IMG/VR virus record: IMGVR_UViG_3300027779_000057
Location: 1-41,340 of that record
Reading direction: 5' to 3' (one strand)
DNA length: 41,340 nucleotides
Source of the DNA: a virus
The position numbers and the translations under genes were made by a program. The notes beneath the pieces are model-generated. The model was not told the DNA's origin. It did not search any database and saw only the letters and a list, made by a program, of their open reading frames with translations. The number at the start of each line of letters is the position of its first letter. Position 1 is the first letter of the stretch. Positions 5,966 through 40,382 of this stretch are shown piece by piece.

Positions 5966-5994
5966 TATAACGTATTAGTAGTCATTATGTTTTA
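5966..5994 (-). promoter_or_regulatory. Late ECF-type promoter for terminase
   Basis: Minus strand: TAAAACA (5994-5988), 14 bases, ACGTTATA (5973-5966). Same spacing and elements as the other late promoters. It lies inside the 3' end of the preceding gene. The start site predicted 6-7 bases beyond the -10 falls on or next to the ATG at 5960. Confidence 0.75.
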
Positions 5995-6229
5995 GGTAGA
6001 TTGTCTTAAGTGTCTGATATATACCATATTGTATATCTCCCTTTTTATATTTCTCTTCCATTATAGCTTTCTTTACACCCATTTCAACTACTATTTCCCA
6101 TTCTAACATAGGAGTTTGTTGAGGATATATTCTATAGTGATTGCGAATGCACCAGACTAATGATTTCTGATGCAAATCCCAATTATCTATCTTAAGCTTT
6201 TTCTTAGCTTCCTGTTTAGCTTTAGCCAT
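5975..6229 (-). CDS. Hypothetical protein, 84 aa
   Basis: A basic soluble protein: a Lys/Ala-rich N-terminus, then a helical part (WDLHQKSLVWCIRNHYRIYP). It overlaps the preceding gene by 8 bases and its 3' end contains the terminase promoter. The position before the terminase suggests a packaging or late accessory role, but no family is recognised. Confidence 0.75.
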   Translation of the reverse strand: MAKAKQEAKKKLKIDNWDLHQKSLVWCIRNHYRIYPQQTPMLEWEIVVEMGVKKAIMEEKYKKGDIQYGIYQTLKTIYLKHNDY

Positions 6230-6455
6230 TAATGATCTCCTCTATTAAAGTATCAAAAGACTCGTTAGAAGCATCTTTTTGTCTTGTTAAGTGCTCTTGT
6301 AAAGCCATTTGAACACCAGCACATGCTAAGTAATTCTCTTCTTCTTCTAATTCTCTTAGACCTACATGTACCATTTCTTCTGTACATCCATCTTCTAAAT
6401 CATACTTAACCATTAAGTAATATTCTTTTATTGTATCGTTTAATACTGAGTTCAT
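6222..6455 (-). CDS. Hypothetical acidic protein, 77 aa
   Basis: A mostly helical, acidic protein (GLRELEEEENYLACAGVQMA in the middle). The start has a leader AACTAAAACT... and overlaps nothing upstream, and the end overlaps the 84-residue gene. No family is recognised. Confidence 0.7.
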   Translation of the reverse strand: MNSVLNDTIKEYYLMVKYDLEDGCTEEMVHVGLRELEEEENYLACAGVQMALQEHLTRQKDASNESFDTLIEEIING

Positions 6456-6473
6456 AGTTTTAGTTTTTATATG

Positions 6474-7154
6474 TTAACAATCTGTTCTTAATTTCAATAG
6501 GTTATAGCATTCAATATACTTCTCTTTTGCTTTACCTCTGTATACTTCTTTAAATAACTCATAGAGTCTTTTAGTATATAAGTATTGTGAATCACAATCA
6601 GCGAATAGTTTCTTAGCGTAAGCTTTTCCATATCCTTTTAGGTAATTTACATTATCAGCAGTATCTCCAACTACCATTTGCTCATAGAAGTTAAACATAG
6701 CTTCACTTTCAGTTATATCTTCAAGCTCTTTCTTCTTATAGTTATAGAATAAACAAGGGAATTGTCTGTAGTCTTTATCAACTGCAACAATCATCACCTT
6801 ATCTCTACCTATCTTTTCAGAAGCTCTAAACCAGTATGAAGCAATCATATCATCAGTCTCTACACCATAACCAACTATAGACTTATATTCTGTCTTAACA
6901 TGATTATGTAATGCAAACAAATGCTCAGGGAGTGACTGCTTCTTTCTATTGGCTTTATAGTTAGGAGTAATTAATTTTCTGAAGTTACCTCTACTACCAG
7001 AGAATATATATACACCATCAGGTTCATATGTATTCATGATATCTTTCATTAAGTTTCTATAACTCCATGTGAATTTGTCAATACATTCTTCAAGTGTATC
7101 TGAAGTTACTGCACTAGCAAATATCATAGTATCTGCATCAATTAATATTACCAT
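6474..7154 (-). CDS. 5'-3' exonuclease / flap endonuclease (FEN/PIN family)
   Basis: Degrades 5' ends and flaps during replication, recombination or host DNA breakdown. The 226 residues match the phage FEN family in order: LIDADTM with Asp6/Asp8, the helical-arch segment YKANRK (66-71), ETDDM with Glu99, Asp101 and Asp102, AVDKDYRQ with Asp126/Asp128, and the helix-three-turn-helix GDTADNVNYLKGYG (163-176) with Asp164/Asp167. All metal ligands are present. It is the last enzyme of the operon running from the exonuclease at 9893. Confidence 0.9.
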   Translation of the reverse strand: MVILIDADTMIFASAVTSDTLEECIDKFTWSYRNLMKDIMNTYEPDGVYIFSGSRGNFRKLITPNYKANRKKQSLPEHLFALHNHVKTEYKSIVGYGVETDDMIASYWFRASEKIGRDKVMIVAVDKDYRQFPCLFYNYKKKELEDITESEAMFNFYEQMVVGDTADNVNYLKGYGKAYAKKLFADCDSQYLYTKRLYELFKEVYRGKAKEKYIECYNLLKLRTDC

Positions 7155-7156
7155 AA

Positions 7157-7504
7157 TTATTTAGTTTTATATGTTAGTTCTATCTCTTTTTGTAGGTTCG
7201 CTAGAGCTCTCCACGCTACCTTAGTAGAATGCCTAACTCCATCTGTATCCATTGTGCCAGCTTCCATAAGATGTCTTGTTAAAGCATCTAATTCATCACC
7301 TGACTTACTTCTATCCCAGTGTAAAGGCTTACCAGCATTATGTTGCTCATTACCTATTCTAGAACATATAGCTACTTCTCTAATAGCATCAGGGAAGTAA
7401 TTTAATACCCCTGAAAATATAGGGGTATCTTTTCTTTGTTGTGCAACTGATATAGTAGGTAATTCACCAACTAATTCTTCGTACTTCTTTATGCTATCGC
7501 TCAT
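7157..7504 (-). CDS. dATP/dGTP diphosphohydrolase-like protein (DUF5664 type)
   Basis: Resembles the phage family named dATP/dGTP diphosphohydrolase N-terminal (formerly DUF5664), related in helical design to nucleotide pyrophosphohydrolases. Visible pattern: a Tyr-Phe-Pro-x-Ala-Ile block, GNEQHNAGKPLHWDRSKS, then DELDALTRHL and HSTKVAWRALANLQ, with repeated His, Glu and Asp typical of metal-NTP sites. Start set at MSDS (7504, 115 aa), because the longer reading to 7546 overlaps a micro-gene that ends at 7507. It may bias the nucleotide pool. Assignment is from pattern memory. Confidence 0.7.
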   Translation of the reverse strand: MSDSIKKYEELVGELPTISVAQQRKDTPIFSGVLNYFPDAIREVAICSRIGNEQHNAGKPLHWDRSKSGDELDALTRHLMEAGTMDTDGVRHSTKVAWRALANLQKEIELTYKTK

Positions 7505-7506
7505 AG

Positions 7507-7596
7507 TTACATATGTATTTGTGATATTTGTAATACTGCTAAACACATTAGCAATAATATTCCTATCTCGTGGTTAATCTTCTTATTTCTTTTCAT
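7507..7596 (-). CDS. 29-residue membrane peptide
   Basis: ATG 7596 (leader ACTAAAAACAATTACC) to TAA 7509-7507, 2 bases before the next start. A basic start (MKRNKKINHE) is followed by one hydrophobic helix (IGILLLMCLAVLQIS). It fills the gap between the lipoprotein and the diphosphohydrolase gene. Confidence 0.5.
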   Translation of the reverse strand: MKRNKKINHEIGILLLMCLAVLQISQIHM

Positions 7597-7607
7597 GGTA
7601 ATTGTTT

Positions 7608-8450
7608 TTAGTTTCCACCGTCAACTTCACTCCATGATTGGAATGTAAAGTTTAAACCTGACTCTTCAGCTTGAAGGCTATCAGCTAATATAGTGTATAC
7701 ATTAGTTTGACCAACGCTAGCAGTTACAGTTGATACTATATCGTAATTAACTATCTCTACATCATTAGATTTAGCGTATACTCTTACAGTATGTATTTGA
7801 ACTTGACCATCTACAGAATCAATATTAGACCACATAGATAAATATCTCTTATTAGAGTTAGTGAAAGTCATTAGTTCTGCTACTTCTTGGTTAGTAAATA
7901 CAGTAATAGAATAATAATAATCATCAGTTAAACTATCATCCATCTTTATTAAAGTAATAATTCTACCGTAATTAGTATTCATATCAATGTTAATAAAATC
8001 ATTGTCTCCTGTAATGTCTGCATCTAAAGTTTCACCTTCAAATATAACGTAAGGTACTTGACTCTTTTTGTCATCTAAAACATCTTCCAATATAGCATCC
8101 TGATTTATATTTAATGAATTATAAACCTGACTACCAGAAGCAGTTGTTAACGCAGTAAAATCATTAGCACCTAAAGGTACATCTGCAACTACAAATCCAT
8201 CAACTCCTGATCCATCATCTACTAAATCATAGTCAGCTAATACAACTGTACCTGTTATCGCTGAAGTAACTTCAACACTTATAGACTCTACAGTAACAGG
8301 GACATCATCTCTATTTACATTAGACCTACTTTGACTATCTACGTTTAATCTAACGTCTGTAGTTGGAAATACTATATCGTGTGTGTGTTCATCTTTATGA
8401 CATGAACTTAATATACTTAATACTGTTAATCCTATTATTATGTTTTTCAT
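7608..8450 (-). CDS. Surface-type lipoprotein, 280 aa
   Basis: A secreted lipoprotein: signal peptide and lipobox in residues 1-17 (LSILSSC, Cys17), followed by His-Lys-Asp-Glu, which fits the X-K-(D/E)2-X export signal that sends lipoproteins to the cell surface in Capnocytophaga and relatives. The mature part is beta-rich and acidic, like fimbrillin-type or receptor-domain proteins of Bacteroidetes. Start set at 8450 because the upstream gene stops at 8454-8452 (TAATATG); a reading from 8477 would overlap it. In a phage such a protein most plausibly blocks the receptor (superinfection exclusion). Function is inferred. Confidence 0.8.
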   Translation of the reverse strand: MKNIIIGLTVLSILSSCHKDEHTHDIVFPTTDVRLNVDSQSRSNVNRDDVPVTVESISVEVTSAITGTVVLADYDLVDDGSGVDGFVVADVPLGANDFTALTTASGSQVYNSLNINQDAILEDVLDDKKSQVPYVIFEGETLDADITGDNDFINIDMNTNYGRIITLIKMDDSLTDDYYYSITVFTNQEVAELMTFTNSNKRYLSMWSNIDSVDGQVQIHTVRVYAKSNDVEIVNYDIVSTVTASVGQTNVYTILADSLQAEESGLNFTFQSWSEVDGGN

Positions 8451-8451
8451 A

Positions 8452-8604
8452 TTATTTTTTTGTTTTAGTTGTTTCACTTACTTTTCCACCATCTAAGGTT
8501 GTTATTCTTGCATTTAAATCTACCATAGCTACGTATAATTGACTTAATACTTTTTCCATTCTACCCATTCTTTGGGCAATTGTATGTTTCTTATCGAATT
8601 TCAT
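8452..8604 (-). CDS. Hypothetical protein, 50 aa
   Basis: ATG 8604 to TAA 8454-8452, one base before the lipoprotein start. The product is a helical stretch (MGRMEKVLSQLYVAMVDLNA) with a basic, polar tail (ETTKTKK), so it could be a small coiled coil. The adjacent stop and start fix both this gene and the lipoprotein start. Confidence 0.65.
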   Translation of the reverse strand: MKFDKKHTIAQRMGRMEKVLSQLYVAMVDLNARITTLDGGKVSETTKTKK

Positions 8605-8608
8605 ATGT

Positions 8609-8689
8609 TTAGTTTTTAGTGTAAGCGTAATAGATAGCTCTTATTTGAAAGATTATCATTATTATTCCTATTATTATTATTGGTGTCAT
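8609..8689 (-). CDS. 26-residue membrane peptide
   Basis: ATG 8689 shares its A with the stop of the 39-residue gene (TAATG). The product is one hydrophobic Ile-rich helix then a basic tail (RAIYYAYTKN). Small and repetitive, accepted mainly because of the coupling. Confidence 0.4.
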   Translation of the reverse strand: MTPIIIIGIIMIIFQIRAIYYAYTKN

Positions 8690-8808
8690 TACTCTTTTAT
8701 TAAAGTCATACCATCTCTAACTATAGATTCAGGTAATTCATTAGGTGTGGAATATCCAATTATAGTTTGTGTCAAAGGACATCTGTAACTTGCTGTATTG
8801 TATTTCAT
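8689..8808 (-). CDS. Hypothetical protein, 39 aa
   Basis: ATG 8808 to TAA 8691-8689. Soluble product MKYNTASYRCPLTQTIIGYS followed by an acidic middle. One Cys. It overlaps the start of the 26-residue peptide. Function is unknown. Confidence 0.5.
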   Translation of the reverse strand: MKYNTASYRCPLTQTIIGYSTPNELPESIVRDGMTLIKE

Positions 8809-8820
8809 ATATATATTTAT

Positions 8821-8961
8821 TTATTCGGTTATTATAAAACTTGTCATTTCTTTACAGTCTGCGCATCTACCTTCTAGCTCACATATGTGACCATCAGCAG
8901 AAGCAGAGCAACACTCAGACATATAATCTGTAGTGTCGCTTGTGCATCTATATATATCCAT
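8821..8961 (-). CDS. Cys-rich zinc-ribbon-like protein, 46 aa
   Basis: ATG 8961 overlaps the stop of the exonuclease gene as TAATG. Six Cys in 46 residues, at positions 6, 17, 18, 28, 34 and 37, include a C-x-x-C knuckle (RCADC), so metal binding is likely. The missing zinc finger of the preceding exonuclease makes a partnership conceivable, but this is speculation. Confidence 0.6.
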   Translation of the reverse strand: MDIYRCTSDTTDYMSECCSASADGHICELEGRCADCKEMTSFIITE

Positions 8962-9893
8962 TATGCATTAAAGAATTTCATATACTCTCCATTGCTAATC
9001 TTGTATTGAACACCATCTGTATTAGATTGCATTATACGTTGAATAGTTCCGTTAGGAGTACAAGTAGTTCTGTATAAGAATACATCAGTAGTACCATCAG
9101 AAGGTGATGTCCATTTTGGTAGACCAGCTAATACACCAAAGTGTACTTTATGCCCCATATACTTTCTTAATGTAATATACATAGCTTCAGTAGATACAAT
9201 ATCACCAACATTATAATCTACCATTTTCTGTAGATATTCTTTCTGTTGAGCTTTAGTACCTTCTTGAATCATATCCCACATCTTAATACCTTCGTGAGTC
9301 TGTTTGTTCTCTACGTTAAGAAACTTAGTTATATAATCCATAGAGTAAGATGGTAATCTAAATAATCTCTTAGTCTGCTTCATTATATCAAACGACTTAA
9401 TAAATGTATTGAAGTGAATACCATGTTTCATTGCTCTTGCATTTAACCATCTGTTATCAAATCTATCATTATTTTGACCAACAATCATATCAGCAGAATT
9501 ATATTCTACCATAAACTTTTCAATCATAGCTTTATCACAGTGATCTTTATCCCATGTTAAAGCGTGAATCTTATCTTCTCCTAACCATTTCCATGATACT
9601 GATATCATCTTAGGTTCTGATGTTAAGTTCTTATGACCAACATATTGTTTACCAGTCCACCATACTTTAGCGTTTACTCTAGATGTTTCAATATCATATA
9701 TCATTACTCTGAAAGAGTCTGTAGTTGTATTGTCTCCAGTTAAACCTAAGTTCTGAGCCCATGCTCTAACTGTTCTAGTAGTAACACCAAATGTAGATGC
9801 TAATTGATTTTGTGCTTTAGACTTAGAATCTTCTCTTCTGTAAGATACTTTGATCAATTCTTTGTCTACGTCTGTTAATTGTTTAAAGTTCAT
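8961..9893 (-). CDS. DnaQ-like 3'-5' exonuclease with N-terminal HTH
   Basis: A 310-residue fusion. Residues 26-50 form a helix-turn-helix (LASTFGVTTRTVRAWAQNLG). Residues 62-245 are a DEDD exonuclease: DIETS with Asp67/Glu69 (ExoI), NNDRFD near 141-146 (ExoII) and YNVGDIVSTE with Asp231 and Tyr227 (ExoIII region). The C-terminal 60 residues are unassigned. Possible role: proofreading-like trimming or DNA processing in recombination, targeted by the HTH. It is the first gene after the 9919 promoter. Confidence 0.85.
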   Translation of the reverse strand: MNFKQLTDVDKELIKVSYRREDSKSKAQNQLASTFGVTTRTVRAWAQNLGLTGDNTTTDSFRVMIYDIETSRVNAKVWWTGKQYVGHKNLTSEPKMISVSWKWLGEDKIHALTWDKDHCDKAMIEKFMVEYNSADMIVGQNNDRFDNRWLNARAMKHGIHFNTFIKSFDIMKQTKRLFRLPSYSMDYITKFLNVENKQTHEGIKMWDMIQEGTKAQQKEYLQKMVDYNVGDIVSTEAMYITLRKYMGHKVHFGVLAGLPKWTSPSDGTTDVFLYRTTCTPNGTIQRIMQSNTDGVQYKISNGEYMKFFNA

Positions 9894-9918
9894 ATTGTTT
9901 TTGTTTTATTGTTATACG

Positions 9919-9950
9919 CAAATATACGATATATTATGCGAGCTACCAAA
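9919..9950 (-). promoter_or_regulatory. Middle promoter, TTTG-N20-TATATTTG (extended)
   Basis: Minus strand: TTTGGTAGCTCG at 9950-9939, 20 bases between TTTG and TATATTTG (9926-9919). It drives the exonuclease operon (9893-5975) and shares the extended block with four other middle promoters. Confidence 0.85.
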
Positions 9951-9964
9951 TGAATTAGCTATTA

Positions 9965-10138
9965 TTATCTCATTCTCGAAGGAATATTGTATTGATTTAA
10001 ATCTTCCTCTGTACATTCTGACCAGCATACTACTGCATCACTAGGATACTTACTTAGTATATATGTTAAATGTTGCATGAAGAATTCACCTTCTGTATTG
10101 ATAACTATACGTTCATTATTTACTACTAATGTTTCCAT
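9965..10138 (-). CDS. Hypothetical protein, 57 aa
   Basis: ATG 10138 comes one base after the stop of the 63-residue gene (TAATATG), and the gene ends at TAA 9967-9965. A soluble alpha/beta product (METLVVNNERIVINTEGEFF start, two Cys, WSECTEEDL motif). No family is recognised. Confidence 0.65.
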   Translation of the reverse strand: METLVVNNERIVINTEGEFFMQHLTYILSKYPSDAVVCWSECTEEDLNQYNIPSRMR

Positions 10139-10139
10139 A

Positions 10140-10331
10140 TTATCTATTTAATTCTAAGGTTGTGTATATATAATTAGCTAATTCTAATTCTATTTCGAAT
10201 CCTGAATATACTAAATTGATTTGTTCTTTAGATACTATAGGGTATCCATCCCAATCAAAGTTCTTTACGTTGTTCTTTGCTTTTTCTAATCTTGCCCAAG
10301 CAAAATTGTGTGCTCTTTCTTGTATTGTCAT
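10140..10331 (-). CDS. Hypothetical protein, 63 aa
   Basis: Start set at MTIQ (10331), because an upstream ATG at 10358 lies inside the promoter -7 element (10363-10356) and would precede the start of transcription. The product has an amphipathic first helix (FAWARLEKAKNNV) and an aromatic middle (NFDWDGYPIVSKEQI). It resembles short phage proteins with a FDWDG-Y-P pattern, but no function is known. Confidence 0.7.
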   Translation of the reverse strand: MTIQERAHNFAWARLEKAKNNVKNFDWDGYPIVSKEQINLVYSGFEIELELANYIYTTLELNR

Positions 10332-10355
10332 AGTGTTTGTTTTTATTGTTCCATA

Positions 10356-10387
10356 CAAATATAGTAATTATAATGCGAGTAAACAAA
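10356..10387 (-). promoter_or_regulatory. Middle promoter, TTTG-N20-TATATTTG
   Basis: Minus-strand TTTG (10387-10384), 20 bases, TATATTTG (10363-10356). The extended block is more divergent here (TTTGTTTACTCG). It directly follows the terminator of the sigma operon and serves 10331-9965. Confidence 0.8.
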
Positions 10388-10418
10388 TAAAACCCCACTT
10401 ATTTTACTAAATGAGGTT
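10385..10418 (-). terminator. Intrinsic terminator after the recombination/sigma operon
   Basis: Minus strand: an 11-base-pair stem (AACCTCATTTA with TAAGTGGGGTT, loop GTAAAA) followed by TTATTTG. It ends the operon 13773-10427, and its tail overlaps the next promoter. Confidence 0.75.
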
Positions 10419-10426
10419 ATTATTTA

Positions 10427-10822
10427 CTATTTATCTTCGTAAGTTAAGTATATGTTCTTTAATGAACTTAATACATTTCTTACACATGAAGGACAGTTAC
10501 TAGGCTTCTTAGTCTGATGCATAACTCTATTGTAGATAAGATACAAATCTCTAAGTAACTCTGCTCTAAGCGTTCCAGTCGTATTGTCTGGGTACTTCTT
10601 AAAGTGTTTATCTAGAACTTTATATTCTTTCTCTGTTAAACATTCAGGTTTCTGATAAGGATAGAGCTTATTTAATAAAGCTTTTCTCTCATCACAACCA
10701 CAATCCTCACCTAGTATAAACTTAGCAATCTTATCAATACCTGTAGCTTTTAATACTTTTTCTACTGTATCTCCAAGACCTTTACTTACCTTAGGTTTAC
10801 TTACTCTTTTTTTCTTTGTCAT
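10427..10822 (-). CDS. Hypothetical Zn-binding-like protein, 131 aa
   Basis: A basic N-terminus (KKKRVSKPKVSKG) is followed by a helical domain with a Cys pair C-G-C near residue 42 and C-P-S-C near residue 109, plausible zinc ligands. The pattern EDCGCDERKALLNKLYPY and the ending PSCVRNVLSSLKNIY recur in Bacteroidetes phages as a conserved protein of unknown function. It follows the sigma gene by 6 bases, so a partner of the sigma factor is possible. Confidence 0.75.
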   Translation of the reverse strand: MTKKKRVSKPKVSKGLGDTVEKVLKATGIDKIAKFILGEDCGCDERKALLNKLYPYQKPECLTEKEYKVLDKHFKKYPDNTTGTLRAELLRDLYLIYNRVMHQTKKPSNCPSCVRNVLSSLKNIYLTYEDK

Positions 10823-10828
10823 AATTTA

Positions 10829-11404
10829 TTATTTAATTAAGTGATAATCTTTGTTAAAGAAGTCAGCGACATCTTCGCCACATTCATCTCTAACTATATT
10901 CATTACTTTAGTCAATGTATTAAAAATACTATTTAAGTTGATACCTGTTTCTTTAGCCATTCTTCTCATAGATAGCTCTCTTGTATTGTATCCTATAAAT
11001 ATATTCTTAAAGTATGGATAGTTATCTGATATAGGTAACCCATCTAAAACCTTGACGACCTTAGAGTATGTTTTATCAAACGCATCTTGCTCTGACTCAT
11101 TGTAATCTTCATTACTAGATATCAAATCATATTTGTTTTCCTCTGGATTATCATCCGTTGAATATACTGTTAATTTATTTTTCTGTCTGTAATAATCTCC
11201 ATGAAGAGATTTAAGAGTTAAGTACACATAAAACTTATTTACATCATCATCACCATAAGTTATATCTTTACCTCTCTCTACTAAATCATGAATCTTTATA
11301 TACATGTCTTGTACTATATCTTCTGCAATTGAAGGGTTCGCTCCAAATCCTAAGACCATTCTGTTCCACGTTGAGTGGTTCTTTGCTAGTTTCTCTAGGA
11401 TCAT
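10829..11404 (-). CDS. ECF-like RNA polymerase sigma factor
   Basis: A two-domain sigma-like protein of 191 residues. Residues 10-75 are sigma region 2 (AEDIVQDMYIKIHDL, then LKSLHGDYYRQKNK, the region 2.3/2.4 helix). Residues 139-174 are a region 4 helix-turn-helix (TRELSMRRMAKETGINLNSI). No region 3 or 1.1, so the ECF type. It most likely redirects host RNA polymerase to the late promoters AAAC-N16-CGTTA at 5966, 19340, 24028, 26304, 32675 and 40354. The start is fixed by TAATG overlap with the 46-residue gene. The link to those promoters is inferred. Confidence 0.85.
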   Translation of the reverse strand: MILEKLAKNHSTWNRMVLGFGANPSIAEDIVQDMYIKIHDLVERGKDITYGDDDVNKFYVYLTLKSLHGDYYRQKNKLTVYSTDDNPEENKYDLISSNEDYNESEQDAFDKTYSKVVKVLDGLPISDNYPYFKNIFIGYNTRELSMRRMAKETGINLNSIFNTLTKVMNIVRDECGEDVADFFNKDYHLIK

Positions 11405-11544
11405 TATGCGGTAGGTATCATATTAATACTAACGAAACCTAAATCTAGTTTGTATACATTATATGAACTTTCTTCAGTTTCTTGAACTGTTACTATTTCA
11501 AATCCGAATACGAATCCTACTATTAATCTGCTTGTTACATACAT
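11404..11544 (-). CDS. Hypothetical protein, 46 aa
   Basis: ATG 11544 to TAA 11406-11404, sharing a base with the sigma start. It has a hydrophobic N-terminal half (RLIVGFVFGFEIVTVQ) and an acidic middle (ETEESS). A small beta protein or membrane-associated peptide. Its position right before the sigma gene makes an anti-sigma or modulating role conceivable, without evidence. Confidence 0.6.
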   Translation of the reverse strand: MYVTSRLIVGFVFGFEIVTVQETEESSYNVYKLDLGFVSINMIPTA

Positions 11545-11546
11545 AT

Positions 11547-11942
11547 TTATATTGTTTTTATAGTTATCTCGACTCTAGGATTATCCTTGTCAAGCTCTGT
11601 TGGTAGTATTATCTCTGTCTTTACATTGTCATCATTATCATCATCCCAACATCCATACTCTGTTACTGCATCTAAAAAGAATTTACTTGCAATTGATACT
11701 ACGTTCATTTTATCTAAGCTTCTCTTGGAAGGCTTGAATACTTGATATGTAATTTCAACTGGAGTCTCTATCTCTAGTCCGTCTAACTGATCCTTCATTA
11801 ACTCTTTGTATACTTTCTTAGCCTGATTGTTTACCAAGAAATGTAAATTTCTATAGGTATTTAAGTTCATTGCTATTCTTTTATCCTTAGACTTAACTCT
11901 GGGTAGATATACTGCAAAAGGTGTATTAAATTTAGTTATCAT
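11547..11942 (-). CDS. rusA: RusA-like Holliday junction resolvase
   Basis: Cuts four-way DNA junctions made by recombination before packaging. The 131 residues show the RusA order: N-terminal strand, KRSLDKMNVV (Asp77), FFLDAVTEYG (Asp91) and the acidic WDDDNDDNV (Asp100-102), then a C-terminal strand VEITIK. Overlaps the ATPase gene by 11 bases, within the ERF-SSB-ATPase recombination set. Confidence 0.85.
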   Translation of the reverse strand: MITKFNTPFAVYLPRVKSKDKRIAMNLNTYRNLHFLVNNQAKKVYKELMKDQLDGLEIETPVEITYQVFKPSKRSLDKMNVVSIASKFFLDAVTEYGCWDDDNDDNVKTEIILPTELDKDNPRVEITIKTI

Positions 11943-12801: not shown

Positions 12802-12844
12802 ATCTTAGTTTGTTTTTATTAATACTTTGTTTTTAGTCTTAGTT

Positions 12845-12872
12845 AATAAGGGAGCGATCAAACTCCCCTATT
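12845..12872 (-). promoter_or_regulatory. Hairpin between SSB and ATPase genes
   Basis: Minus-strand AATAGGGGAG and CTCCCTTATT can pair over 10 bases around an 8-base loop, in the 86-base gap after SSB. No T tract follows, so it looks more like an attenuator, RNA-processing or mRNA-stability element that would let SSB mRNA outnumber the rest. Confidence 0.6.
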
Positions 12873-12887
12873 TATTTTAATGTACTA

Positions 12888-13211
12888 CTAGAAAGGGAAA
12901 TCATCACCTGAAGCAGTCTCAACAGCTGGTGCTGGAGCTGGCTTAGGAGCATCCTGATCTTGTCTTACAGCTACAACGATAGAATCGTCAGTCCAAACTA
13001 CTTTACCGTTACCTAAGTAAGTCTTTTGCTTTTTAGCTTCTCTCTCTTCTTTAGTCTGTGAATCAAATGCTGATACATTCTGACCAAATTGATTAGTCTC
13101 ATCGTTAATACTAACAGTAAAGTTATAATATACTTTTCCGTTCTTTCCTTTAACAAACTTCTCTTTCGGTAAATTTGCTACGTCAATTGATAAATTTAAT
13201 AATGCGCTCAT
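12888..13211 (-). CDS. ssb: Single-stranded DNA-binding protein
   Basis: Coats single-stranded DNA during replication and recombination. 107 residues: an OB-like N-terminal domain (LNLSIDVANLPKEKFVKG, YYNFTVSIND), a Pro/Ala-rich linker and the diagnostic acidic tip DDFPF at the very C-terminus that recruits partner proteins. Short for an SSB, as in many phages. Placed between ERF and the ATPase. Confidence 0.88.
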   Translation of the reverse strand: MSALLNLSIDVANLPKEKFVKGKNGKVYYNFTVSINDETNQFGQNVSAFDSQTKEEREAKKQKTYLGNGKVVWTDDSIVVAVRQDQDAPKPAPAPAVETASGDDFPF

Positions 13212-13233
13212 AGTTTTTGTGTTTTAGTTATAA

Positions 13234-13773: not shown

Positions 13774-13802
13774 ATTATATTGTTTTAGTTATTATCGTTA
13801 TG

Positions 13803-13834
13803 CAAATATACATAATATATTGCGAACTACCAAA
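13803..13834 (-). promoter_or_regulatory. Middle promoter, TTTG-N20-TATATTTG (extended)
   Basis: Minus strand: TTTGGTAGTTCG (13834-13823), TATATTTG (13810-13803). The best example of the class. It drives the ERF-SSB-ATPase-RusA-sigma operon, making the sigma factor an early/middle product. Confidence 0.88.
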
Positions 13835-14582: not shown

Positions 14583-14614
14583 CAAATATAGTAAATATAA
14601 TACGAACCACCAAA
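14583..14614 (-). promoter_or_regulatory. Middle promoter, TTTG-N20-TATATTTG (extended)
   Basis: Minus strand: TTTGGTGGTTCG (14614-14603), 20 bases, TATATTTG (14590-14583). It comes directly after the tRNA transcript terminator and serves 14552-13839. Confidence 0.87.
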
Positions 14615-14685: not shown

Positions 14686-14759
14686 TGGAGGTAGAGGGAT
14701 TCGAACCCACGACTTTCTACGTGCAAGGCAGATACTCTAGCCAGCTGAGTTATACCCCC
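14686..14759 (-). tRNA. tRNA-Ala (anticodon UGC)
   Basis: Reads GGGGGTA at the 5' end, pairing with TACCTCC at the 3' end, with the G3-U70 wobble that identifies alanine tRNAs. The D arm, anticodon arm (TCTGC-CTTGCAC-GTAGA, anticodon TGC after T33) and TTCGAAT T loop are all present. CCA is not encoded. It is the only tRNA seen, cotranscribed with the M15-like gene and followed by a terminator. It may supplement decoding of GCA, a frequent codon in the Ala-rich structural genes. Confidence 0.95.
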
Positions 14760-15155: not shown

Positions 15156-15258
15156 CGTATTTTCTTAATACTTCCATAGCTTCTCCTAAATGATATCCAA
15201 CTGTGTATCCTAGTACAAAGGCTACTATAGTAATTATTATTGATATAAAGTAATACAT
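15136..15258 (-). CDS. Small membrane protein, 40 aa
   Basis: ATG 15258, first gene after the 15288 promoter, overlapping the M15-like gene by 20 bases. One N-terminal membrane span (ISIIITIVAFVLGYTVGYHL) and a short charged cytoplasmic tail (MEVLRKYDEEATK). The gene pair suggests an envelope or lysis role, e.g. a holin-like or spanin-like accessory, not proven. Confidence 0.65.
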   Translation of the reverse strand: MYYFISIIITIVAFVLGYTVGYHLGEAMEVLRKYDEEATK

Positions 15259-19339: not shown

Positions 19340-19367
19340 TATAACGCAAAAAGTGCGTTTTTGTTCG
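19340..19367 (-). promoter_or_regulatory. Late ECF-type promoter for portal/lysis operon
   Basis: Minus strand: CGAACA (19367-19362), 14 bases, GCGTTATA (19347-19340). The spacer and -10 can also form a hairpin AACGCA/TGCGTT. About 20 bases of leader precede the portal ATG. Confidence 0.75.
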
Positions 19368-23437: not shown

Positions 23438-24022
23438 TTAATTAAAGTATGCTTTTCCACTGAAGGAATAAGCGAAATTTATTGTTAAGTTATTAGTATC
23501 TATAAACGTTATCTCACCAACTACCACTGAATTACCAGAGTCAACTACAGTTATGGAAGGGAATTTACCCAGTCCATGAGAAACAGACCATGATGTAGAA
23601 GCAGATGCTTGATTATGAATAAAGTTCTTATCACCAGATAGTGAAGTATCTACAGTAATGTAATTAGAAGTATTAGTATCCTGTATATAAACGAAATCTG
23701 TATCATGCATATTAAACCTTTCAGCAGCATTATCAGTCGTATATTCATCTTTAACTTGTAACTTATCTCTGAATAGTAATTTACCAATTGAATCTTTTAA
23801 TGTAAGTAAATATGTTTTACCATCTATTAATTCTCCAGTAGATATGCTATAAGAAACCTCTACACTATTATTGGAATAAACCAATGCAGTAGGAGTTAAT
23901 TCAGTAACAACACTACTACCTTCTTCTATAAGGCTAATAGTTATCTCGCTCGAAGCGTATGTATTGTCTGTCCTCAGTATTGCATCGAATACTTGTAGGC
24001 TGTTTGTGTTAGTTATGATCAT
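23438..24022 (-). CDS. Virion protein with C-terminal fibre-head domain, 194 aa
   Basis: The N-terminal half is a beta sandwich-like unit (YLLTLKDSIGKLLFRDKLQVKDE resembles Ig/BppU-type baseplate upper protein domains). The C-terminal 60 residues (HNQASASTSWSVSHGLGKFP ... SGKAYFN) are a widespread phage tail-fibre module. Probably joins fibres to the tail. It has its own late promoter, only 5 bases before the ATG, so the mRNA may be leaderless. Confidence 0.7.
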   Translation of the reverse strand: MIITNTNSLQVFDAILRTDNTYASSEITISLIEEGSSVVTELTPTALVYSNNSVEVSYSISTGELIDGKTYLLTLKDSIGKLLFRDKLQVKDEYTTDNAAERFNMHDTDFVYIQDTNTSNYITVDTSLSGDKNFIHNQASASTSWSVSHGLGKFPSITVVDSGNSVVVGEITFIDTNNLTINFAYSFSGKAYFN

Positions 24023-24027: not shown

Positions 24028-24056
24028 TATAACGCTAAAATGTTGTTTTTGTTTGG
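24028..24056 (-). promoter_or_regulatory. Late ECF-type promoter for fibre operon
   Basis: Minus strand: CCAAACA (24056-24050), 14 bases, GCGTTATA (24035-24028). A perfect member of the class. It directly follows the terminator at 24070-24103. Confidence 0.85.
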
Positions 24057-26303: not shown

Positions 26304-26332
26304 TATAACGCAGAAAAGGTGAAAGTGTTTGG
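26304..26332 (-). promoter_or_regulatory. Late ECF-type promoter for scaffold/capsid operon
   Basis: Minus strand: CCAAACA (26332-26326), 14 bases, GCGTTATA (26311-26304). About 14 bases of leader. Just upstream GGTGAAAA can pair with TTTCACC across the -35, a possible control hairpin. Confidence 0.87.
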
Positions 26333-32647: not shown

Positions 32648-32674
32648 AATTGTTTGTTGTTATATATACCCCTA

Positions 32675-32703
32675 TATAACGTAATATAAGGGTATATGTT
32701 TGG
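32675..32703 (-). promoter_or_regulatory. Late ECF-type promoter for protease gene
   Basis: Minus strand: CCAAACA (32703-32697), 14 bases, ACGTTATA (32682-32675). It starts 3 bases after the tape-measure stop. ATATACCC/GGGTATAT around the -10 could form a hairpin (32664-32696). Confidence 0.85.
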
Positions 32704-32705
32704 TT

Positions 32706-34805: not shown

Positions 34806-34944
34806 TTCTTCTTAGTTTAAATTGTTGTTTTATATCGCTCCAATTTAGAGCTAAATTATATTTTCCTTTAGCGAATGCTATTTCCTCTGACGTAATGTCA
34901 TCAGAGGATTTTAGCAATTCAACTATTTGTTTTAAATGTATCAT
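34795..34944 (-). CDS. Hypothetical protein before tape measure, 49 aa
   Basis: ATG 34944 to TAG 34797-34795, overlapping the tape-measure start by 11 bases. A soluble helical protein with SEEIAFAKGKYNLALNWSDI and a basic end. Its ATG is part of a dispersed element (minus TTTAATATGATAC). Position before the tape measure suggests a small chaperone, but it is only an inference. Confidence 0.65.
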   Translation of the reverse strand: MIHLKQIVELLKSSDDITSEEIAFAKGKYNLALNWSDIKQQFKLRRNGN

Positions 34945-34951
34945 ATTAAAT
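34939..34951. repeat. Dispersed element at the 49-aa gene start
   Basis: One GTATCATATTAAA copy after the hub-gene stop at 34960. Here the element itself supplies the ATG of the next gene (mRNA TTTAATATGATAC). Confidence 0.55.
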
Positions 34952-34959
34952 ATTTATTG

Positions 34960-37500
34960 TTAATCCTGACAGAAAGCATTTTGTATTACTAATCCTGACG
35001 AATTTAATTTATATAAATCTTGATATTGATGTTTATACCATCCAGCAGCAGCTGGGGTTGTACCAGCAGCATCAGTATAGACGTAATCTCCTACAATTGG
35101 GTAGAAGTAAGTACCATCTGTGTATAAAACATTTCCACTACCTATAGAACTTGTACAAGCGTTAGATTCAGTACTCATAGCAGAAGTTGTACTGCCAAAA
35201 GAGGTTATTGTTACTGTTTCCTCGGTTGTCCCATCGTCTGTAGGAGTATCATCAATAGTTTCATCAACTTCTGGCTCTATAACGATACCATCAGCTATTT
35301 CATTGATTAATTCTAACTTAGTCTTACCATTAGTTAAATTAGTCTCAAACTGATTGATTCTATACCTTTTGTTGTTAATTATTAACTTATCATTAGGTTT
35401 CATCCTTAATAGTATGTTTACAGGTAAATAACAATCAAATTCAAATAATCTTGACTGTTCGTTGTAAATACTCTTAATATATTCCTTATAATACAGTTCA
35501 AATAGACTAGAATTGACAGTTTGACCAGTAAATTCATTAAATTCACTACCAAAATTAGTAGTTCCAGAGTCATTATCACTCATATTCCTTACATTAGAAG
35601 GAGCAATATATTGTGTCTTCATAACGCTAGTTCCACCATCTATATAACTAAATCTGTGTTGTGTAGCACTTGCTACCTTATTACAGTAGAAAAACATAGG
35701 TTTTCCCTTAATAGCACTAGATTCTTCATTTGCCATCCATCCCCACTGTATACTAGTTAATTCAGTCTCATTTACTTGATTAGTCATCCTTTCCATCATC
35801 ATTTTCTCTAAAGGAAGCTTAATCTCATACTTTTCATTACCATCAAAGGCTAATATAGAACCAATATCTTCTGATCTATGATCTACTCTTTCATTACCAA
35901 ACTCATCACCTGTTATAGCATTAGCTTGTTTTAACGCAAAAGTATCTTGACCAGCATATACTAAATCAATCTTATTGTATAATAAAGTTTTACTTACTTG
36001 TGTCCTATCATAGTCAACATACTTACTTATATCAAAGTACCTACCATCATCATAATATTCATCAAGTGTTCTTACCTGTATAATTCCATTTTCATAATAA
36101 GCTGTAAGATTAAACATCTTAAACAAAGTACTAAGAAATGTAATAACCTTCATATCAGGCATATTTCTACGTATACTTAATCCACTAGATATTTCTTGAA
36201 CTACAGTACTACCATTGTTAAACGATCCGTACCAGTCCCAAGTCACGTCACTTAATGGAAAGTTTCTTTCTAGTATCTTAGTTATTCTTAATTCTGATAT
36301 TTTAACATGAGTAATACCACCTCTTGTACTTAATATAAACTTAGGTACTTTAGCACCATCAGATTTCCAAGTACAATCAATTTCTCTTGCACCTTGTATA
36401 TTAATATGTTGTTTATCTCTCTTACCGTTATCTGCATTAATAGCATCAAAGCTCCATAATCCATTAGTATTCACAGAACCATCAGAGTTACATGGCGTAA
36501 CAACGAAGCGAGTTCTATGGTCTAATTGTTTACTATTATATAATCTCGTTCCATTTTGAGATAATAAGATACCAGTCACATCCGCAGGATGTGCATCGCC
36601 ACTAGAGTAAGTCCAATCGTCTAACTGAAGTACTAGTTCCTCATCACCGATTTGCTCCTCTATTGTCCCTTTCTCTCTATTTAACCATATAAATAATTCT
36701 TCATACACTTCATTGCTGTCAGTAAAGAAGTCATCACTAAATGATATACCGTATTTCTGCTCAATAGATTTTATAACCCATTTAATCTTTATAGCTGGTT
36801 TCAACGCAAAAGCATTTACACCAGTGTACTGATCCTTAGCTGCATTATATGTAGCAGTAGGATGTATATTTCTACTATTATTACCATTATCTTTCGGACT
36901 TAGTCCATTAGCACTATCATAATAATGATAATCACTAGCTGATATAAAAGGAAAGCAGTAATCAAAGTCAGGAGAAGTAAAAGCTCTAGTTAACCCACCA
37001 GTAGTATCATCATACTGATATCCTTCACTATATCCTTTAGATATGTAATCTCCATCAACTAAATGATCAAAGTCATCTAAGTGAGTACCTGTTCCTGTTA
37101 AAGCTTCTAATTTATCCTCACCTATCAAATCCTTAAGTGAAACTGTTTCACCATAGAAGTTTATAGTATAAGAATAAGCAGCTCCTTTTTGTAGGTTAGC
37201 TTTACTTAAGCTTATTGATCCTTTTCTAAAATCTATACCATTAATCTTTATAATAGCATCTCTTTTAAATCTAGCGTCAAATGTTCCTGTTACTTCAAAT
37301 CTATCAAAGTGACCGAATAATTTGTTGTTAACACTAGTAGCTGGTAAAGTAAATGAATGACTATAATCAGTCAGTACTTTAGCAATATCTCTAATGTCTT
37401 TTATTCTGGTCGTATAGTTAATATCTTCAAAGTCGAACATGTCAGCTCTTGTATGTCCACCGACTCCATTAGCTATATATAGTTCTACTTGTCTTTTCAT
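34960..37500 (-). CDS. Tail hub/fibre protein with Cys-ended module, 846 aa
   Basis: The N-terminal domain (RADMFDFEDINYTTRIKDIR ... FTLPATSVNNKLFGHF) is a conserved part of Bacteroidetes phage tail proteins and looks like a hub or baseplate domain. The centre is beta-rich (FDISKYVDYDRTQVSKTLL). An acidic Thr/Asp linker (about 755-775) precedes the C-terminal module (about 775-846: ACTSSIGSGN, GDYVYTDAAGTTPAAAGWYK, ending FCQD) shared with the 19369-19773 protein. It is coupled to the preceding gene by TAATG and precedes the tape measure. Confidence 0.75.
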   Translation of the reverse strand: MKRQVELYIANGVGGHTRADMFDFEDINYTTRIKDIRDIAKVLTDYSHSFTLPATSVNNKLFGHFDRFEVTGTFDARFKRDAIIKINGIDFRKGSISLSKANLQKGAAYSYTINFYGETVSLKDLIGEDKLEALTGTGTHLDDFDHLVDGDYISKGYSEGYQYDDTTGGLTRAFTSPDFDYCFPFISASDYHYYDSANGLSPKDNGNNSRNIHPTATYNAAKDQYTGVNAFALKPAIKIKWVIKSIEQKYGISFSDDFFTDSNEVYEELFIWLNREKGTIEEQIGDEELVLQLDDWTYSSGDAHPADVTGILLSQNGTRLYNSKQLDHRTRFVVTPCNSDGSVNTNGLWSFDAINADNGKRDKQHINIQGAREIDCTWKSDGAKVPKFILSTRGGITHVKISELRITKILERNFPLSDVTWDWYGSFNNGSTVVQEISSGLSIRRNMPDMKVITFLSTLFKMFNLTAYYENGIIQVRTLDEYYDDGRYFDISKYVDYDRTQVSKTLLYNKIDLVYAGQDTFALKQANAITGDEFGNERVDHRSEDIGSILAFDGNEKYEIKLPLEKMMMERMTNQVNETELTSIQWGWMANEESSAIKGKPMFFYCNKVASATQHRFSYIDGGTSVMKTQYIAPSNVRNMSDNDSGTTNFGSEFNEFTGQTVNSSLFELYYKEYIKSIYNEQSRLFEFDCYLPVNILLRMKPNDKLIINNKRYRINQFETNLTNGKTKLELINEIADGIVIEPEVDETIDDTPTDDGTTEETVTITSFGSTTSAMSTESNACTSSIGSGNVLYTDGTYFYPIVGDYVYTDAAGTTPAAAGWYKHQYQDLYKLNSSGLVIQNAFCQD

Positions 37501-38552
37501 TATCTTATTGTATTTATTTTATTAGATGCAAACTCAATATCCATTGAATACTGAATCATCTTATCATTTAAACTTGTCTTATGTTCCATATCACTTGTCT
37601 TTATGTTGACAGGTTGTGTAGTACCATTATATTCTATCCATACTTTCTCACTCATTAATAACTGTACAAAAGATTCATTCATCTCCTCTAGTACAAAACC
37701 AGAGTTAAGTTTTAACGTTTCTCTAGATTGAGTATTGAACTTTCTAAACTGATGTTCAAATGTATTATAAGTACCATTAGATAGTACCTGATTATTCTGA
37801 TAATCCTTACTAGTTATTTTAGTTTTTAACTTACTAGTTTTAAAGAACCACATATCTTCCATAGCACCATATCTATTAACAAACTTAAGCTTGATAGGTT
37901 CGTATTTACATTCATCTAATCTATGTATATTAATAGTATCAATAGAACCATCAGCTTTACTTACTGTAACTCTATCTATAGCGTTTACATTAGTAGAATT
38001 ATAACTAACTTGTTGACCACTTAATAAATTACTAGTTAAAGTTATTTCTTGATCTGGATTAGCATCATCTACATTACCATTACGAAATTCTTTATATACT
38101 AAACCTACTCTTTTGCAAATAGGGAATTTAAGATGTTCTCCATTTGGTACGTATACATGTTCACTACTAAAACATAATGCTTTATTAGCATCGTAATTAG
38201 CACCTTCACTAAAGTAAGAGTAACCATCTACAGCATATAACTGTACCATAGTATCAGTAGCTAGTACTGGTCCAGTACCATCATCAGTATACTTTCTTAT
38301 TTCGTAATCTAACCATGCTCCATCAGTTCTATAATTAGTTCCAGATGGATATTGTATAGCATCATTTACTAAAGAACCGATATCAAATGATAACGATCCA
38401 TTAATAGCAGTACTTTTAAGCGTGTAGTTAGGTGTTCCAAATCTACTTGTAGTCTGCGTACCTGTGTACATATAGATATCTACCTCAGCATATATCAAAT
38501 CTGTTTCACTTACGTTTATATGGTAAGGTGATTTACTTAGTATTGTACTCAT
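37500..38552 (-). CDS. Tail protein, 350 aa
   Basis: A beta-rich protein: N-terminal fibronectin-like start (ILSKSPYHINVSETDLIYAE), then segments with RFGTPNYTL and aromatic strands. The C-terminal third (FEHQFRKFNTQSRETLKLNS, SMDIEFASNKINTIR) looks like a conserved tail domain of Bacteroidetes phages. Placed between gp10-like and hub genes, it may be a distal tail or baseplate component. Confidence 0.65.
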   Translation of the reverse strand: MSTILSKSPYHINVSETDLIYAEVDIYMYTGTQTTSRFGTPNYTLKSTAINGSLSFDIGSLVNDAIQYPSGTNYRTDGAWLDYEIRKYTDDGTGPVLATDTMVQLYAVDGYSYFSEGANYDANKALCFSSEHVYVPNGEHLKFPICKRVGLVYKEFRNGNVDDANPDQEITLTSNLLSGQQVSYNSTNVNAIDRVTVSKADGSIDTINIHRLDECKYEPIKLKFVNRYGAMEDMWFFKTSKLKTKITSKDYQNNQVLSNGTYNTFEHQFRKFNTQSRETLKLNSGFVLEEMNESFVQLLMSEKVWIEYNGTTQPVNIKTSDMEHKTSLNDKMIQYSMDIEFASNKINTIR

Positions 38553-38554
38553 AG

Positions 38555-39052
38555 TTATAATTTTATTAATTGTTCTTTAATATCAGCAGCATAACCTTCC
38601 ATAAGGTCTTTACCTATTTGTTCTTCTAATTCTTTATATACTCTATCGTATACTTTAGCTCCAGTATTACCAAATCTCTTAATCAATCCTCTTTTCTTAA
38701 TAGATTTAGCTATAGCAAATGCCATACCTCTCATAGCTCCTAGTGAAGTATCTCCACTGTCAGGTCTAACACCTTTCATATTAGCCCAGTCCATTATGTT
38801 CTTAATATAAGCTTTACTTATCTTAGAGTATCCTGATTGAGCAATTCTACTTCCTTCATCAATAGCACCACCATACTTAGCATTAAGTACATCAATACTA
38901 CCTTCAACTATTTTAGTTTGTATGGAAGCAGCTAACTCACCACTAGCATGTAAACCATCACTAAGTAGTTTTTCTCTTACTTCATCAGCAAAGTATTCAC
39001 CTACTCTTTCTAGAGCAAGTTGCATGTTTTTTGTTTTCAGTTTAGCAGTCAT
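38555..39052 (-). CDS. HK97 gp10-like tail completion protein
   Basis: Caps the tail so that it can join the head. Shows ASGELAASIQTKIVEGSIDV, YGGAIDEGSR and RGMAFAIAKSIKKRG, the usual pattern (ligand Ser-Gly-x-L-x-x-S, edge strand, E-x-G). Start chosen at MTAKLKTKNM (39052), which overlaps the previous gene by 11 bases. The longer reading from 39085 would overlap it by 44. Confidence 0.75.
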   Translation of the reverse strand: MTAKLKTKNMQLALERVGEYFADEVREKLLSDGLHASGELAASIQTKIVEGSIDVLNAKYGGAIDEGSRIAQSGYSKISKAYIKNIMDWANMKGVRPDSGDTSLGAMRGMAFAIAKSIKKRGLIKRFGNTGAKVYDRVYKELEEQIGKDLMEGYAADIKEQLIKL

Positions 39053-39530
39053 CGTCTTCTCCCCCATCTCCTTTAGTAACCTCATTAGGTACTACTAAAG
39101 ATAATGTACAAGACCATCCAGCTAATGTATTAGCAAACCTATCTTTAAATGGTTCTGCTGTTAATGATTCATCAGTCTGTAATAAGCTGTCTCTTAAACT
39201 ACCTCTACTTAAGTTAGCGTGTATTCTTTGTAATACTGATAGTTGATTATTAAGTATGTCTTGTAGGTTACCATTACCATAAAAGTAATCGTACTCATCT
39301 ACTTGTAGATTGTTCTCATCTAATATATCCATACATAGTATGTTTAGATTAAATTCAATAGTAGCTTCATTAATTACAGCATTCTCGATATTCATATGTG
39401 CCAATGGAAAGATTGTAGTCTTATCCAAATCAACATCTGTTATATCACCAAATGAAACTGTATTAGTAAAGTCACCACTTCTTATGAAGTCCTTAACATC
39501 ATCTAATAATTTGTATACGTTATTTGTCAT
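39042..39530 (-). CDS. Tail protein (putative), 162 aa
   Basis: Start set at MTNNVYKLLDDVKDFI (39530), because the stretch before it (39535-39633) is the frameshifted end of the previous gene, which stops at 39537-39535, 4 bases before this ATG. The pattern FGDITDVDLDKTTIFPLAHM and LNNQLSVLQRIHANL resembles a conserved tail-terminator-like protein of Bacteroidetes phages. The acidic Cys tail (GGEDDDC) is unusual. Confidence 0.7.
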   Translation of the reverse strand: MTNNVYKLLDDVKDFIRSGDFTNTVSFGDITDVDLDKTTIFPLAHMNIENAVINEATIEFNLNILCMDILDENNLQVDEYDYFYGNGNLQDILNNQLSVLQRIHANLSRGSLRDSLLQTDESLTAEPFKDRFANTLAGWSCTLSLVVPNEVTKGDGGEDDDC

Positions 39531-39534
39531 TGTA

Positions 39535-40328
39535 TTAATTTTTATTTTGAGCTCGTTTAATAAGAGCGACCTCGACTCTATTTTTATCTTTTTCGAATTC
39601 AAGTACAAGGAGTGCCCTGTGTACATTGAGTTTTACTGCATCATCGATTTTACTTGCATCTTCTTTAGCCAAAGAGTAAATTGATTGAAACCATCCGTAC
39701 TTGTCTCCGAAATTGGATTGGATACTAGTTCCACTGCCTTGACTGCCATCTGAAGAGAAGAGGCTTGTGTAAGTTTCAGCAATTGATTTTGCAAACGTCC
39801 CATAAAAGACATAGCACCTAGTACTACATCAATCGGAGCATCTAACATATGTTCGCTAAACTTAGCTGAACCTTCATATTCTTCTACCTGATATTTATCA
39901 CCTATGATTCTAGTCTTAGGTCTAAACAATACAGCCATAGCTTGATGCCAAGTATCAACTGTATTTATATACTTATCTACATCTACATATTCACCAAAAG
40001 TTAAATCATCTAATTTAGGTATCATCCCAAATTCTATACTAACATCTTTAGCATCTACTAAAGTAAAGGTTGGTATGTGCTTATCGAACTCCTCATTAAA
40101 CATTTTGTTAATATGGTTGATTACATTATCAAACGAATGCAAAGGTATTTTATTTGTGTCCTCTATACTAAGATCACAGAAAGTCTGTAGCATCTTAATC
40201 TTTAAGAAGTTCTCGTCTGTAGATTTAGATTCTTGATACTTGTTAAGTATCTTAATCCAAGACTGATATTTCCTTAGAGTTATACCCTGTAAATTAACAG
40301 GTATATTTATATTAAATTCTTTTATCAT
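39535..40328 (-). CDS. First late gene, tail-assembly-chaperone-like, needs -1 frameshift
   Basis: The frame from ATG 40328 stops at 39635 (231 aa), but its last about 30 residues look random. The -1 frame is open from 39828 to a stop at 39537-39535 and encodes FGDKYGWFQSIYSLAKEDAS followed by helices (LNVHRALLVLEFEKDKNRVE), a C-terminus I recognise from Bacteroidetes phage tail proteins of this class. A -1 shift between 39831 and 39635 would give about 263 residues. No start codon exists in the -1 frame. Programmed frameshifting is normal in tail-assembly chaperones, but no canonical slippery heptamer is evident and a sequencing indel is possible. Confidence 0.75.
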
Positions 40329-40353
40329 AGTGTGTTTATATATATTCTATATA

Positions 40354-40382
40354 TATAACGTATTAACGAATCATCTGTTTTT
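40354..40382 (-). promoter_or_regulatory. Late ECF-type promoter for tail operon
   Basis: Minus strand: AAAAACA (40382-40376), 14 bases, ACGTTATA (40361-40354), about 19 bases of leader to ATG 40328. It is back-to-back with the plus-strand late promoter at 40392. Confidence 0.8.

Follow-up and report, generated by a model that had tools for sequence, protein, structure and literature searches.

The sigma factor SaPh711_gp47 of the Salmonella phage 7-11 works on the host core polymerase and reads bipartite promoters with a fixed spacer (GTAAtg-16-aCTA) located before late genes, while early promoters of the phage use host sigma70 (accessible sections of PMC8948821). Coliphage phiEco32 likewise encodes a sigma factor, gp36, for its middle and late genes, and a protein, gp79, which inhibits sigma70 transcription (PMC8948821 and PMC4331800, both as far as accessible). 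In the same sections of PMC8948821, late promoters of 7-11 are described as different from those of phiEco32, yet similarly positioned in the genome, and the single-element promoter of phiEco32, tAATGTAtA, is linked to the lack of region-4 homology. Bacillus SigW and the other extracytoplasmic function (ECF, group 4) sigma factors are made of a sigma2 and a sigma4 domain. ECF promoters in general feature AAC in the -35 and CGT in the -10 element, and the -10 of the SigW/ECF form is CGTA or GTC. A class of putative late promoters, in which the -10 element has GTTA instead, was found in a stretch of 41,340 bases of a marine phage, corresponding to the whole IMG/VR virus record IMGVR_UViG_3300027779_000057 (hereafter the window). 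The same stretch encodes a protein with the predicted architecture of SigW and, next to one of the promoters, a conserved structured non-coding RNA. In contrast to phiEco32, both promoter elements and both sigma domains are present. Compared with 7-11, motif, host phylum and phage type are different, promoters are often located exactly 12 nucleotides (nt) before an ATG, and one would drive a structured RNA.

The motif AAACA-N14-RCGTTATA has six exact matches in the window, five on the minus strand (5966, 24028, 26304, 32675 and 40354) and one on the plus strand (40394), and 0 in 100 dinucleotide shuffles of the window. At a seventh site, 19340 on the minus strand, GAACA is found as -35, one mismatch to the motif. 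The spacer is identical in 7/7 sites, as stated in an earlier note on this DNA, which had however placed the start of the plus-strand site at 40392. A 13-column matrix built from the seven sites scores them at 20.4-21.8 (17.4-21.3 in leave-one-out), and sets them apart from the rest of the window, where the next-best scores, at 15244 and at the intragenic position 8043, are 14.9. No hit of at least 17.4 was found in six shuffles. Many equal matches inside genes, which the earlier note had regarded as damaging to its proposal, are not found. The motif also emerges blindly: when every combination of two 5-mers separated by 8-23 bases was searched in the 55 upstream regions of the window, AAACA-N15-CGTTA ranked first, being present in 5 regions versus 0.05 expected.

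The six minus-strand sites head TerS, the portal gene, the gene of a 194-amino acid (aa) protein, that of a scaffold-like acidic protein, an S78-type protease gene and an operon taken as tail/morphogenesis. Functional family matches among the headed genes are limited to TerL, portal and protease; the other names derive from position or from a first reading of the sequence, and genes are called late from function, not from expression. TerS is so named for its place before TerL, and has no PHROG match. The 194-aa protein sits before a fibre-like open reading frame (ORF). The acidic protein, similarly lacking a PHROG match, precedes a phrog_11320 protein, functionally unassigned by family, taken as capsid. 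The plus-strand site is different, because no ORF of at least 60 aa is found on either strand between 40421 and the end of the record. The idea that all sites head late genes holds for the minus strand, and fails at the plus-strand site, which faces a structured non-coding RNA. Judged from sequence, bipartite promoters with a fixed spacer appear confined to late operons, as in late-sigma systems of the 7-11 kind.

The candidate reader of these promoters is a 191-aa protein. Taken alone, it matches 0 Pfam families at E 0.01, has only weak PHROG matches (sigma family, E 0.004), and as a single sequence finds no sigma factor in PDB. Such scores would suit a different explanation, in which a host ECF sigma factor reads the sites and the phage protein has another role, as would the fact that the AAC/CGT form is general to ECF promoters. 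Bacteroidetes carry many ECF sigma factors. Profile and fold of the phage protein, in contrast, are those of an ECF sigma factor. A family of homologues was gathered from viral contigs, and a profile of 43 members has SigW as its best PDB match (E 2e-5), and hits also SigE and SigL; the relationship to SigW is remote, being seen with the profile only, and no anti-sigma was identified here. Pfam detects Sigma70_r2 in 16/43 homologues, and Sigma70_r4_2 in 2. The AlphaFold2 (AF2) model is of moderate quality (predicted local distance difference test, pLDDT, 75; predicted template modelling score, pTM, 0.43), and its 13 best Foldseek matches are all ECF sigma factors, one at E 0.001 or better. One half of the model overlays region 2 of sigmaE in complex with its -10 element (4lup; 2.5 A over 75, Z 8.5), and the other half region 4 of sigmaE bound to -35 DNA (2h27; 2.8 A over 71, Z 9.2), though Z values near 9 are not high for helical proteins, according to the tool's own note. 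By profile and modelled fold, the protein qualifies as a putative two-domain ECF (group 4) sigma factor, made of region 2 and region 4 domains only, as the earlier note had proposed for the 10829-11404 gene.

Cultured phages with and without such a sigma factor could be compared. Nonlabens phage P12024L has a TerL 50% identical to that of the window, and its gp35, annotated with Sigma-70 region 2, is hit by the sigma profile at E 8.5e-15. The top motif found blindly in P12024L is ACAAA-N14-CGTTA, within AAAACAAA, in 5 regions versus 0.03 expected. Six sites are located at gene starts, five of them 12 nt and one 11 nt before the ATG. RAP44, Harreka_1 and BS-TP2 (the latter examined for about two thirds) are TerL relatives in which neither a sigma hit below E 0.1 nor such a blind motif was found. 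The motif is in sum present in the phage with the sigma factor and not found in three related phages of Bacteroidetes hosts devoid of it, a comparison suggested by the earlier note, and this absence argues against reading by a host ECF factor. Searches of named phages with the window sigma found none, and the P12024L sigma was found only in P12024L and P12024S.

Sigma and TerL searches identified 109 loci (L007-L115). The sigma gene was found in 25/30 records searched; the contigs of the remaining five stop at most 2.6 kb upstream of TerS or TerL, before the sigma position is reached. Homologues in relatives are 26-85% identical to the window sigma, and divergence is fast, as TerL identities of about 70-77% in relatives go with sigma identities of about 29-45%. 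Among the 109 loci, the exact window motif was found in L008 and L036 (same contig) and in L009, whose sigmas are 73-84% identical; L007, with a sigma 85% identical, has only an AGACA variant. Other clades have the same architecture in forms of their own, as AAACA-N14-CGTTATC, TGTTATAAT and AGTTATC. In sister contigs left out of matrix building, hits of at least 17.4 all precede late genes (four in G001, three in G002, one in L007), and weaker hits reach 13.0. The blind search, run over 27 sets (the window and 26 records), placed part of the motif at the top in seven (window, G002, G005, G006, G007, G018, G019) and second in G003 and G026; the first pair of G010 may be a piece of it. In records in which the motif was missed, sites were found instead at the heads of orthologous late genes. 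TerS lacks a site in 16 distinct upstream regions, at least eight of which are from phages with a site before TerL instead. When extended by CC, the exact motif was found in 110 stretches of viral_contigs, as a single site in 79/80 among the matches listed. These stretches are read as mostly due to chance; 5/110 matched window proteins.

The base preceding GTTA, denominated X (C, T or A), is uniform in 39/42 contigs, versus a mean of 10 and a maximum of 19 after shuffling. Contigs with at least two sites were counted, each site having at least 4/5 -35 bases and weaker ones being dropped, and the shuffle ignores kinship. Motif and phage sigma vary together from clade to clade. This does not fit reading by an ECF factor of the host, although common descent could be enough to produce it; all considered, the host-factor explanation is very unlikely. 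Sigma and TerL distances correlate at 0.967 (33 contigs, Mantel-type test), and because of this X-base uniformity denotes concerted change, without proving the sigma factor to be its cause. Partial correlations of the -10 8-mer are 0.35 with sigma given TerL, and -0.17 with TerL given sigma; with the X base only, the values are 0.15 for sigma (permutation p 0.03) and 0.13 for TerL. An independent co-evolution of sigma and promoter was considered and set aside, the test being confounded by the co-inheritance of sigma and TerL. A residue code for the X base, read by eye in regions 2.3-2.4 (Ser versus Asn after TLK/R), was similarly dropped, because G023 and G024 contradict it.

Besides the weak scores of the single protein and the limits of its model, several observations weigh against late promoters read by the phage sigma. 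Co-variation of promoter and sigma is confounded with descent, and the partial correlations are modest. In 20/26 other records, first rank in the blind search did not go to the motif. Strong portal promoters are found only in the clade of the window (L243, L266 and L312 have 3/5 matches). Sigma-bearing G021, G022 and G024 have none or one site, located before a tail gene in G024 and being a loose match in G022. G023 (L269, L270; TerL 26% identical) has three CGTTATA-N5-ATG starts lacking a clear AAACA -35, a layout which suggests a further variant of the same promoter class. The loose pattern AAMCA-N13-16-NGTTAY has 2, 5 and 4 matches in RAP44, Harreka_1 and BS-TP2, which lack the sigma (2 each after reversing the sequence), and none in P12024L (4 after reversal), the latter because the P12024L form ends in GTTAA.

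The distance from X to the ATG is exactly 12 nt in 73/125 distinct sites (TerS, 44 of 73), and ranges from 24 to 55 nt in the rest; no site was found at 8-11 or 13-23 nt. These sites span seven gene classes, and many are from related phages and not independent. With XGTTAT at -12 to -7, transcription would start 12 nt after X, and a transcript from a promoter with the 12-nt spacing would begin at the A of the ATG, implying that late mRNAs with this placement would be leaderless. A start site 6-9 nt past the -10 element is implied by the 12-nt spacing alone. In the window this placement is found at TerS and at the ATG at 24022. Sites of the leaderless type number 5 in P12024L versus a shuffle mean of 0.5, and 1, 0 and 0 in RAP44, Harreka_1 and BS-TP2, versus means of 0.9, 1.2 and 0.1. 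Most transcripts of F. johnsoniae are leadered (accessible part of PMC6847099), and an in silico survey assigned few leaderless genes to Bacteroidetes, by a method that may miss some (PMC3160421, as far as accessible). The spacing bears also on whether AAACA-N15-CGTTA is a -35/-10 promoter at all, or the binding site of an activator or late regulator assisting the host primary sigma. Dimeric regulators can bind bipartite sites with fixed spacing. However, the two arms are neither inverted nor direct repeats, host-type promoter patterns gave no match at the late sites, the sigma factor co-occurs, and a placement at exactly 12 nt and never at 13-23 is that expected of a -10 element fixed to the start of transcription. 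A regulator binding site is accordingly given hardly any probability.

The plus-strand promoter is oriented towards the RNA, and lies back to back with that of the tail-region operon. A covariance model built without the window (R2) finds 40425-40586 with 63.6 bits (E 4e-9), the next hit having 13.5 bits; a second model (R1) contains the window, and finds it by construction. Relatives from five further clades (our grouping) have, upstream of the tail-region operon, a late promoter of the clade's own type that faces the opposite way and reads into conserved sequence poor in ORFs. The distance between RNA and tail gene is at least about 2 kb in one clade (L065, L075, L079, L107). Altogether 34 distinct RNA forms were found, 31 with enough upstream sequence, and GTTA is found 89-106 nt before the AATTGC core, preceded by the X base of the clade, in 31/31. 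In 21 aligned RNAs 97.2% of cells are paired, falling to 28-44% when partners are slid, and 17/24 pairs have two-sided changes (10.6 in shuffles); further pair types, one of five covariation measures, are not above shuffles (30 versus 30.1). Refinement of the structure by eye drew on the same sequences, and is thereby biased in its favour. Of 31 distinct RNAs, 30 have at the 5' side an H-type pseudoknot with a constant 4-2-4-2-4-5-4 layout (4% of mononucleotide shuffles). Its start lies some 5 nt from the predicted 5' end in 30/31 forms, and one of its pairs shows all four Watson-Crick types. The RNA of the window itself lacks this layout. A candidate second pseudoknot, pairing a hairpin loop to the 3' side and closing the core, has 5-7 pairs in 30 RNAs and 4 in the window, its helix coming from a permissive search run without a null.

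The site and the RNA might be a by-product, a leader or spacer transcript devoid of function. The folding energy of two RNAs, taken as single sequences, is not unusual (z -0.5 and 0.0), and the 3' half varies, as such a transcript would; the paired cells, the two-sided changes and the collapse of pairing in slid controls are not what it would give, nor is a GTTA with the clade's own X base upstream of 31/31 RNAs, and a by-product is regarded as unlikely. At gathering score Rfam detects only a tRNA elsewhere in the window and nothing in three relatives; a permissive search of one relative gave nothing beyond a snoRNA match on the opposite strand, below threshold. The RNA models were searched in P12024L and in distant sigma-bearing phages and not found, and BLAST of one RNA (L057) against named phages gave no match. 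The RNA may be a new family. Conservation spans some 500-700 alignment columns within two clades, and the transcript may be longer than the core. No clear intrinsic terminator for the RNA emerged when seven to eight sequences were searched for stems by a simple method. A hairpin flanked by A/T runs, GCCCCTATAATAGC...GCTACTATAAGGGC, unreported by that search, was noticed by eye at about 41070-41120 in the window, and is a possible terminator. GOLLD and ROOL are, to our knowledge, the nearest kind of RNA. These too are structured phage RNAs of unknown function; ROOL has pseudoknots, and GOLLD rises during lysis (accessible sections of PMC12286853). The RNA described here differs from them in lacking an Rfam match, in its smaller conserved core (about 220 nt) and in having its own late promoter by the tail-region operon. 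That it acts late, in packaging or assembly, is a guess. The features identified are listed in Table 1.

Table 1. Predicted promoters, genes and RNA of the window, with the grounds for each assignment
Feature	Coordinates	Strand	Grounds
Late promoter of TerS/TerL	5966..5992	-	exact match; -10 start to ATG 12 nt; predicted start is the A of the ATG at 5960 (leaderless)
Late promoter of portal operon	19340..19366	-	GAACA -35, one mismatch; matrix score 20.5
Late promoter of 194-aa/fibre-like genes	24028..24054	-	exact match; distance 12; predicted start is the ATG at 24022 (leaderless)
Late promoter of scaffold-like and phrog_11320 (capsid-region) genes	26304..26330	-	exact match; same promoter before homologous gene in G001, G002
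Late promoter of S78-type protease gene	32675..32701	-	exact match; protease by Pfam PF14550
Late promoter of operon taken as tail/morphogenesis	40354..40380	-	exact match
Divergent late promoter of non-coding RNA	40394..40420	+	exact match; same arrangement in relatives
Core of conserved structured non-coding RNA, both ends inferred	40426..40649	+	covariance model built without the window; covariation; no Rfam match
Gene of a 191-aa putative sigma factor of ECF type, with only regions 2 and 4	10829..11404	-	profile; Pfam hits of homologues; AF2 model
Host-type promoter TTTG-N20-TATATTTG heading the sigma-containing operon	13803..13834	-	pattern scan versus shuffles
Gene of a 131-aa protein, directly following sigma in most loci	10427..10822	-	synteny; conserved Cys motifs

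Patterns of the TTTG-N18-22-TANNTTTG type, a promoter form described for Flavobacterium (accessible part of PMC6847099), have 18 overlapping matches at 10 places in the window, versus a mean of 3.3 and a maximum of 9 in 60 shuffles. Those on the minus strand include 13834, 14614, 10387 and 9950, and some of the ten places are intragenic. Early genes and the sigma operon would on this ground have host-type promoters, as in systems of the 7-11 kind. Those at 9919-9950, 10356-10387, 13803-13834 and 14583-14614 on the minus strand and at 3983-4014 on the plus strand share, when read by eye, extra bases (about TTTGKTDVYTCGYA...TATATTTG) beyond the Bacteroidetes consensus, and are possibly a distinct early/middle promoter class.

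Transcription may be envisaged as follows. Host RNA polymerase with the host primary sigma would read promoters of the TTTG/TATATTTG type, including the one in front of the operon of the phage sigma. The latter would bind the host core polymerase, region 4 recognising the -35 AAACA and region 2 the -10 [C]GTTAT at the seven late promoters, which would drive the packaging, portal, capsid-region, protease, fibre-like and tail-region operons along with the divergent non-coding RNA. Promoter sequence and sigma factor would have diverged together between clades. Such a cascade in a Bacteroidetes phage, host sigma first and phage ECF-type sigma for late genes, had been put forward in the earlier note and is now very probable: sigma profile and fold, the late-only placement of the motif, its co-occurrence with sigma in P12024L and the host-type promoter on the sigma operon all support it, and with it the ECF-type reading of the sites and their link to the 10829-11404 product.

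The 131-aa protein encoded next to the sigma gene features conserved GLGDTVEK...GEDCGC and CxxC motifs, and was not hit in L013, L014, L015, L021, L022, L027, L028 and L029. Its profile found neither a PDB match below E 0.4 nor a credible Pfam family. It is a candidate sigma partner, of no recognisable family by sequence profile. A prophage search for the host found no TerL relative in bacterial genomes, and the sigma profile hit six loci, including a Bacteroidetes metagenome-assembled genome (MAG; L317, 30%) and a Cellvibrionales MAG (L316, 43% over 88 residues); the host is therefore deduced from the named TerL relatives only. A tRNA gene at 14686-14759 on the minus strand (Rfam, 63.8 bits), overlapping a short ORF call, might identify it.

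Phage late sigma factors of this type are already known; new are the clade-wide divergence of the promoter, the leaderless placement and the late RNA. Neither a late ECF-type promoter class nor a sigma-driven RNA of Bacteroidetes phages was recognised in the literature searched, most subscription papers being outside the search. Taken as a whole, the picture that we somewhat favour is that of a lineage akin to the flavobacterial phages, widespread and probably lytic, which has put its late programme on a fast-evolving private sigma. The regulon would include, in loci holding both, a new RNA with two pseudoknots, fired away from the tail-region operon by its own late promoter and acting late, for example in packaging or assembly, and much of the packaging and protease mRNA would be leaderless in hosts whose transcripts are probably mostly leadered. 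A complete transcription programme is so predicted for a mostly uncultured group of phages, and the sigma and leaderless steps may be tested in the cultured Nonlabens phage P12024L. The exact 12-nt spacing makes leaderless translation of late genes of Bacteroidetes phages testable, and the late RNA would be a new addition to the structured RNAs of phages, with promoter and strand both defined. The paired sigma factors and promoters of these phages would provide a natural data set on how sigma specificity changes.

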